From Amphibalanus amphitrite (Eukaryota > Arthropoda > Thecostraca > Balanomorpha > Balanidae), in NCBI RefSeq assembly GCF_019059575.1, contig NW_024881612.1, forward strand, positions 930,001-994,000: DNA of 64,000 nucleotides, read 5' to 3'. Numbering within the stretch: the stretch's first letter is position 1; each line of letters starts with the position of its first letter. This document shows positions 6,240-43,461 of the stretch, piece after piece. The position numbers were made by a program, and so were the translations under genes. The notes beneath the pieces are model-generated. The model did no database searches. It saw nothing but the letters and a program-made list of their open reading frames with translations, and was not told the DNA's origin.

Positions 6240-6530
6240 CATTTAGTATAAACGACCATTAGGTCGTTTCCCCGTGTGAATCAGCAGCTGACTTTTGAGT
6301 TGTGATGAAACCGAAAATCGTACAGTGCAGATGGAGCAGCCGTACGGCCGCTCTCATGTGTGGGTTCGTATGTTTCCCTTGAGACCTTACCGAAAAGCAA
6401 ACCGCGTCTGTTTGATGGAGCAGCAGTAGGGTCGCTATTCTGTGTGGTGTCATTTGTTTGGTGACATCTGACCCAACAGAAAAACGCGCCGGGTAGATGA
6501 GGGACTGCTGTGCGGGCGCTCCCTGCGTGA
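6240..6530 (-). pseudogene. Decayed fingers 13 onward behind the zinc-finger stop
   Basis: Beyond finger 12 the frame shifts at HMRTH and the main frame stops at 6450. In other frames finger remnants continue ([43 protein letters not shown]), spaced like further C2H2 units. The array was once longer; its distal fingers have degenerated. The shift may instead be recent or a sequence error. Confidence 0.6.

Positions 6531-43461: not shown

Follow-up and report, generated by a model that had tools for sequence, protein, structure and literature searches.

PRDM9, which in vertebrates selects the sites of chromosomal recombination, is commonly regarded as a single gene carrying a single array; what it does outside vertebrates is an open question. 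The locus described here, a PRDM9-like gene in a window of 64,000 nucleotides (C115:930001-994000, in a genome of 807.6 Mb and 2644 contigs), raises that question anew: does such a gene designate recombination hotspots, or does it direct its PR/SET domain to DNA in another capacity? Based on analyses of its exons, its paralogues and their zinc-finger arrays, we lean towards the view that it belongs to a PRDM9-derived family whose DNA targets would be diversified by alternative zinc-finger terminal exons, the products perhaps serving as sequence-guided regulators and not as hotspot designators.

Chitin_bind_4, a cuticle domain of arthropods, is matched at least 150 times in the host genome (150 scored of 705 candidates), which marks the host as an arthropod, a possibility that the first-pass annotation had considered. 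Termites reportedly possess a full-length PRDM9, according to a preprint, and our literature search found no report of an arthropod PRDM9 expansion or of alternative PRDM9 arrays. PRDM9/Meisetz has been described also in Nematostella, Lottia and Capitella (Oliver et al. 2009, PMC2779102), PRDM9-type KRAB sequences are reported from insects and mussels (PMC8835667), and a testis-biased unigene of the Pacific white shrimp has been named PRDM9 (PMC4659196).

Exon structure of the window gene

The window gene comprises nine minus-strand exons between 43.5 and 6.45 kb, in the order acidic 5' exons, zinc knuckle, PR/SET and C2H2 array. These exons and the finger relics around the array are as follows.

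43337..43461, minus strand: 5' exon ex0, donor gtaagt, phase 0; 5' limit uncertain (acceptor as in the first-pass annotation)
38794..38981, minus strand: acidic/serine-rich exon mid1, donor phase 2; tblastn E 6e-22 against a C352 exon
26733..26816, minus strand: exon with borders, phase and homologues in paralogues
26060..26136, minus strand: zinc-knuckle exon, Zn_ribbon_PRDM4 at E 3e-5 (under the curated cut-off); conserved in paralogues
24306..24399, minus strand: pre-SET exon, from borders, phase and paralogue comparison
23808..23914, minus strand: PR/SET exon 1; Tyr276 equivalent kept
20262..20404, minus strand: PR/SET core exon (...VYFR); Tyr341 equivalent is Phe
9399..9532, minus strand: PR/SET end exon; Tyr357 equivalent kept; donor phase 1
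8017..8079, minus strand: single finger relic, within the intron that precedes the array exon
6450..7717, minus strand: exon of the zinc-finger array, with 12 C2H2 fingers (nine of them contiguous) and a degenerate lead finger
2763..2910, minus strand: remnants of decayed fingers, located downstream of the array

The seven exons from 26816 to 6450 join exactly, as had been claimed: all have AG/GT borders and compatible phases, and their product is one open, 5'-incomplete frame of 634 residues. The exon at 26733..26816 is 63-67% identical to its counterparts in four paralogous genes, 56% to that of C138 and 40% to that of C276. The two further 5' exons, previously called plausible, are supported by paralogue homology, for mid1 at the E-value listed above and for ex0 at E 0.0008 to 0.004 in five genes and 0.039 in a sixth, the ex0 homologues lying upstream of ex1 in C352, C998 (two genes), C138, C276 and C836. 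The C352 version of ex0 has 37 matches across the genome. It contains ADSDEEWGPSQ, which we take to resemble the DSDEEWTP stretch that follows the KRAB domain of human PRDM9. The donor phases of ex0 (0) and mid1 (2) do not reach phase 1 of the 26816 exon; in the paralogues, a small phase-restoring exon follows the ex0/mid1 homologues (read by eye from the alignment), and a search of the window for this exon did not find it. Paralogue comparison gave no further coding exons beyond ex0.

The host had also been described as a TTAGG-telomere animal; TTAGG/CCTAA runs are indeed present, but they are interstitial (window 32812-33820), beside satellite-like unit copies in both orientations. Ty3-like retroelement matches (RNase H, integrase zinc-binding and integrase core) lie on the minus strand at ~62.9-64.0 kb, and a dispersed repeat with frames like NPRRxGGGGxLNTP occurs in several copies, e.g. 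at 2994-3521, 39135-39380 and 44364-44645. Scans of the window for tRNAs and Rfam families gave no matches, and no close relatives were confirmed in viral and prokaryote contigs.

PRDM9-like loci and their catalytic positions

A PF21549 profile search of the genome gave 87 matches. PRDM9-like PR/SET domains occur at ~58 places, uncollapsed haplotypes included: 56 are multi-exon and fall into group A (the window gene's type of multi-exon PRDM9-like locus) and group B, and two are single-exon. C1208, C171:790621, C160, C461 and C579, which are short or unclassed, stand outside the 56, and these counts are upper bounds for genes, since several loci appear twice, on contigs that represent their two haplotypes. 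Single contigs hold up to nine PR/SET loci (C352 nine, C192 and C428 five each). Group B accounts for ~20 places (e.g. on C428, C171, C152, C379 and C1313) whose PR/SET exons hardly differ: of 18 core peptides, 15 are identical. The single-exon places, C161:220063-220728 and C56:1222788-1223141, are near-identical, join knuckle and PR/SET, keep Tyr341 and are the genome's two best PF21549 matches; no zinc fingers were found within ~8 kb downstream of C161. The PR/SET copy at C150:599732-599923, in which exons are fused and a stop is present, resembles a retrocopy. With dozens of paralogues present, the window gene is ruled out as the genome's only PRDM9.

The joined PR/SET exons of the window gene match the Pfam PRDM PR domain PF21549 (E 1e-38, 132 bits against a cut-off of 27), and a Pfam domain scan assigns its array exon to zf-H2C2_2 (E 4e-86). 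The knuckle aligns to DDDYLYCEMC...CAAHGP of PRDM9, by itself a weak stretch of 14 bits. When PDB sequences are ranked against the window product, three PRDM9 sequences (121-123 bits) stand above PRDM11 (75.8) and PRDM1 (69.9); the PR/SET part alone gives 112 bits with PRDM9 and 70.1 with PRDM1. We built a tree of 15 rows, namely seven of the genome's own PRDM9-like sequences, its own PRDM1-like gene and PDB rows for human and mouse PRDM9, PRDM11, 1, 14, 12 and 2, with PRDM4, 5, 10, 16 and MECOM left out. It places groups A and B and C161 together with PRDM9 and PRDM11 (support 93/98, not starred); the branches of PRDM11 and C161 are long, and their exact placement is unsure. Placement in another PRDM family (PRDM1, 2, 12 or 14) is ruled out by the PDB ranking together with the tree. 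Judged by these sequence comparisons, the window gene belongs to the PRDM7/9/11 clade, expanded in this arthropod, and its original naming as a PRDM9 gene stands at the level of the clade.

The first-pass annotation had credited the gene with a complete SSXRD-knuckle-SET-finger architecture, of which knuckle, SET and fingers are confirmed and SSXRD was not detected. Scans of all three minus frames between 26.7 and 64 kb gave no KRAB or SSXRD match, and a control scan of the same kind recovered the PR core exon on its own at E 7e-14; whole-genome searches for the KRAB and SSXRD families were empty, as equally were those of control genomes.

Tyr276, Tyr341 and Tyr357 are named as catalytic by Baker et al. 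(PMC5519329). Counted by eye on the 6nm4 alignment (offset 194, with which all three fall on chain tyrosines), the window gene keeps the equivalents of Tyr276 and Tyr357 and has Phe for Tyr341, and the assertion that its SET core motifs look intact holds at positions 276 and 357 but not at 341. Among fetched loci with a full core exon, Phe341 is found in 31 of 31 group-A exons and Tyr341 in 18 of 18 group-B exons. The former set omits C836, C276, C114 and C150 (no full core exon, or filter) and the unfetched C265, and includes C352:383702, a PR/SET copy with a stop in its core exon; the latter omits the unfetched C428:79853 and C913. Group B and C161/C56 keep all three catalytic tyrosines. In vertebrates, according to PMC5519329, catalytic-tyrosine substitutions affect 57 of 227 PRDM9 orthologues and none that is complete, and swordtail PRDM9-beta, which is knockout-like for recombination, combines Y341F with Y357P; the same source states that loss of one catalytic residue need not mean loss of activity. 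The dN/dS ratios, 0.23 for group-A core exons (n=31), 0.34 for group-A last SET exons (n=28), 0.066 for group-B core exons (n=18) and 0.17 for the window gene against other group-A loci, indicate that the PR/SET exons are under purifying selection.

Array exons behind single PR/SET domains

Eight candidate window-type array exons are spread over ~87 kb of the C115 minus strand behind the contig's only PR/SET match, the first being the one inside the window and the rest lying downstream. They were compared over their first 81 residues only, with the window gene's lead fingers as query.

C115:937718, minus strand: array exon 1 (the window's), frame of 426 residues
C115:920627, minus strand: array exon 2, frame of 506 residues
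C115:910204, minus strand: array exon 3, frame of 261 residues
C115:898628, minus strand: array exon 4, frame of 482 residues
C115:891084, minus strand: array exon 5, frame of 570 residues
C115:885292, minus strand: array exon 6, frame of 371 residues
C115:876218, minus strand: array exon 7, frame of 431 residues
C115:851036, minus strand: array exon 8, frame of 541 residues

A second contig, C1742, is collinear with C115: its first arrays are spaced by 17.8 and 10.2 kb, those of C115 by 17.1 and 10.4 kb, and aligned blocks above 600 bp are 92-99.5% identical to the window with large insertions between them. It is probably the other haplotype of the window locus, but it may instead be a recent duplication. 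Against the haplotype reading, C1742:85001-86500 failed to match the window, unlike the two other stretches that were compared in the same way. The C1742 counterpart of the window array has a frame of 342 against 426 residues, exactly three fingers fewer; the second array has 506 residues in both, and the third 512 on C1742 against 261 on C115.

Similar arrangements recur across the genome. On C998, two tandem genes ~21-22 kb apart, with larger aligned blocks 92-97% identical, each combine a single PR/SET with two array exons whose sequence was read completely or almost completely. Among 12 arrays read, 11 acceptors keep the phase of the PR/SET donor, and 10 of them place the acceptor AG 20 nt upstream of the first cysteine position, which matches the window PR/SET donor in phase (two of the 10 counted after allowing a replaced Cys and a one-codon shift); the group-B array has its acceptor at 17 nt in the same phase, and the first C192 array is broken. 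A lead-finger query, built from group-A arrays and possibly favouring that group, gave at least 150 array places (150 scored of 210 candidates), and a window-type query (150 scored of 1580 candidates) lists the same arrays on the four group-B contigs; the array counts are lower bounds, because no more than 150 of 210 or 1580 candidates were scored. For most arrays, the lead fingers and the length of the open frame were seen, and not the whole array.

Each array was then assigned to the nearest upstream PR/SET on its own strand, over 44 of the 56 PR/SET loci. Among the matches listed, 28 group-A loci have 1-6 arrays each (mean 4), with one exception of 16 over 305 kb, and two others, C836 and C467, have 3 each; 11 of 14 group-B loci have one array, one has a second 140 kb off and two have none. 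A group-A locus thus typically has 2-6 array exons after one PR/SET and a group-B locus mostly one (again among the matches listed), the group-B arrays sitting singly 1-4 kb from their own PR/SET. No arrays were found within 9.7 kb of the C836 PR/SET or 4.6 kb of those of C138 and C195, but arrays lie at 24, 14.7 and 14.2 kb, respectively. Array exons also occur in runs away from any PR/SET match, at C276:197-325 kb and C192:380-493 kb.

The combined acceptor-plus-lead-finger pattern occurs at 121 places, against 5 for the reversed pattern. Exact register with an array of the lead-finger query is seen at 77 of 100 listed places. Arrays on group-B contigs and on a small number of others were omitted from this comparison, but the 23 places without a match all lie elsewhere. 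A further 11 are in register with window-query arrays when compared by eye (eight on C115, and C192:582300, C276:208562 and C265:351011). On C352, all 27 pattern places are in register, against 36 arrays.

We think it unlikely that the extra arrays are separate zinc-finger genes or PR/SET-less duplicates and that the window gene uses its own array only. Such an arrangement would accommodate the 19 of 150 listed arrays with no assigned upstream PR/SET, the C276 arrays 177-305 kb from a PR/SET and the three window-type arrays upstream of the window gene (C115 1005774, 1020714 and 1049644), and arrays as far as 88 kb away could be separate genes or relics. Against it stand the donor phase kept by nearly all acceptors read, the register at 88 of 100 listed pattern places, the tandem C998 unit of one PR/SET with two arrays and the single, close arrays of group B, as well as strand agreement: on contigs with a listed PR/SET, the nearest PR/SET is on the same strand for 133 of 143 arrays. 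Sharing of acceptors among arrays could, however, result from descent alone.

Within the window array, the lead finger has Gly in place of its relatives' first Cys. Across eight full fingers, diversity is highest at helix positions -1, 3 and 6, which take the top three ranks among 28 columns (1 of 3276 triplets). The share of diversity at these contacts is 0.342 for nine fingers, 0.381 for eight, 0.412 for seven and 0.264 for all twelve; Table 1 of PMC5519329 gives 0.331-1.0 for complete orthologues and 0.158-0.213 for PRDM9-beta, and the standard of Baker et al. for PRDM9 is an array among the genome's fastest-evolving C2H2 arrays. Given shares of 0.314 on C1742, 0.26-0.34 in eight other group-A arrays and 0.219 in one group-B array, the contact-diversity signal of group-A arrays appears modest. 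Mean nucleotide identity among the nine window fingers is 0.73, and the array is far from a young minisatellite.

Proposed mechanism and comparison with known systems

Position and acceptor register identify several phase-compatible candidate terminal array exons after one constant part. We propose that splicing links this constant part, consisting of acidic 5' exons, zinc knuckle and PR/SET, to a single array exon in any one transcript, and one locus would therefore yield a set of PR/SET proteins that differ in DNA target. These targets would be renewed by unequal exchange between near-identical fingers, in conjunction with divergence at DNA-contact residues. More speculatively, methyl transfer may be altered by Y341F, and the proteins may act as sequence-guided chromatin regulators, most likely against germ-line transposons and satellites. 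By analogy, an anti-transposon role in an arms race like that of KRAB zinc-finger proteins seems the most likely function. As a tentative elaboration, which we hold with some reserve, each locus would combine one catalytic module with a bank of up to ~8 long, self-renewing finger exons from which alternative splicing chooses, giving on the order of a hundred sequence specificities with which to mark chromatin, for defence or for a multi-motif recombination map.

In a canonical PRDM9 role, the window gene would place H3K4/H3K36 methylation and designate meiotic recombination hotspots, which we consider improbable. The PRDM9-clade PR/SET, the Tyr276 and Tyr357 kept in the window gene, the diversity at contact residues and the array-length difference between the collinear contigs are in agreement with this role, as are the three tyrosines of group B and C161/C56. 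It is opposed by Y341F, as no complete vertebrate PRDM9 in PMC5519329 is substituted at the catalytic tyrosines, by the lack of KRAB and SSXRD matches in the window frames and in the genome search with its empty controls, and by an arrangement of dozens of loci with several arrays each that is not the known one. For group A we favour defence over hotspot choice, because Tyr341 is replaced and the hotspot-linked N-terminal domains were not found. PRDM9-directed recombination in this lineage is possible, above all for group B and C161/C56 with their three tyrosines, but it is not our favoured reading for the window gene. That the window copy is a decaying family member, as its lead finger, the 5' exon not found, Y341F and the relics at 8.0 and 2.8 kb might suggest, is very improbable in view of seven open exons with intact borders, PR/SET and finger exons that are open also on C1742, the dN/dS of 0.17 and a Y341F common to all 31 group-A core exons counted.

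The proposed family of alternative finger exons resembles PRDM9 in its zinc knuckle, in a PR/SET that in the window gene has Tyr276 and Tyr357, in a C2H2 array most diverse at contacts -1, 3 and 6 and in array-length variation, and differs from it in Y341F, in having dozens of loci and multiple array exons behind each PR/SET, and in KRAB/SSXRD domains that were not found here. Mammalian KRAB zinc-finger genes form tandem clusters with fast-changing C2H2 arrays. Tandem clusters with C2H2 arrays are seen here, too, but the effector is PR/SET, and several arrays seem to share one effector. Teleost PRDM9-beta, as described in PMC5519329, has no KRAB/SSXRD, domains for which the searches here gave no match, and has catalytic-tyrosine substitutions, Y341F occurring also in swordtails, whereas its contact shares of 0.158-0.213 contrast with 0.34 in the window and 0.31 on C1742.

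The dozens of copies represent a natural experiment, with group B (tyrosines, mostly one array) set against group A (altered site, several arrays), and this contrast could show which of tyrosines, array turnover and copy number accompany recombination and which accompany other functions. In Drosophila, lola, mod(mdg4) and broad join a constant BTB N-terminal part to many alternative zinc-finger 3' exons. The loci described here similarly have one constant part and many candidate zinc-finger 3' exons, but with PR/SET and long arrays in place of BTB and few, stable fingers. If the proposed splicing is true, a methyltransferase served by a bank of alternative zinc-finger exons would represent a new way to diversify DNA targeting, in which one gene could aim a chromatin-marking enzyme at many DNA sequences.
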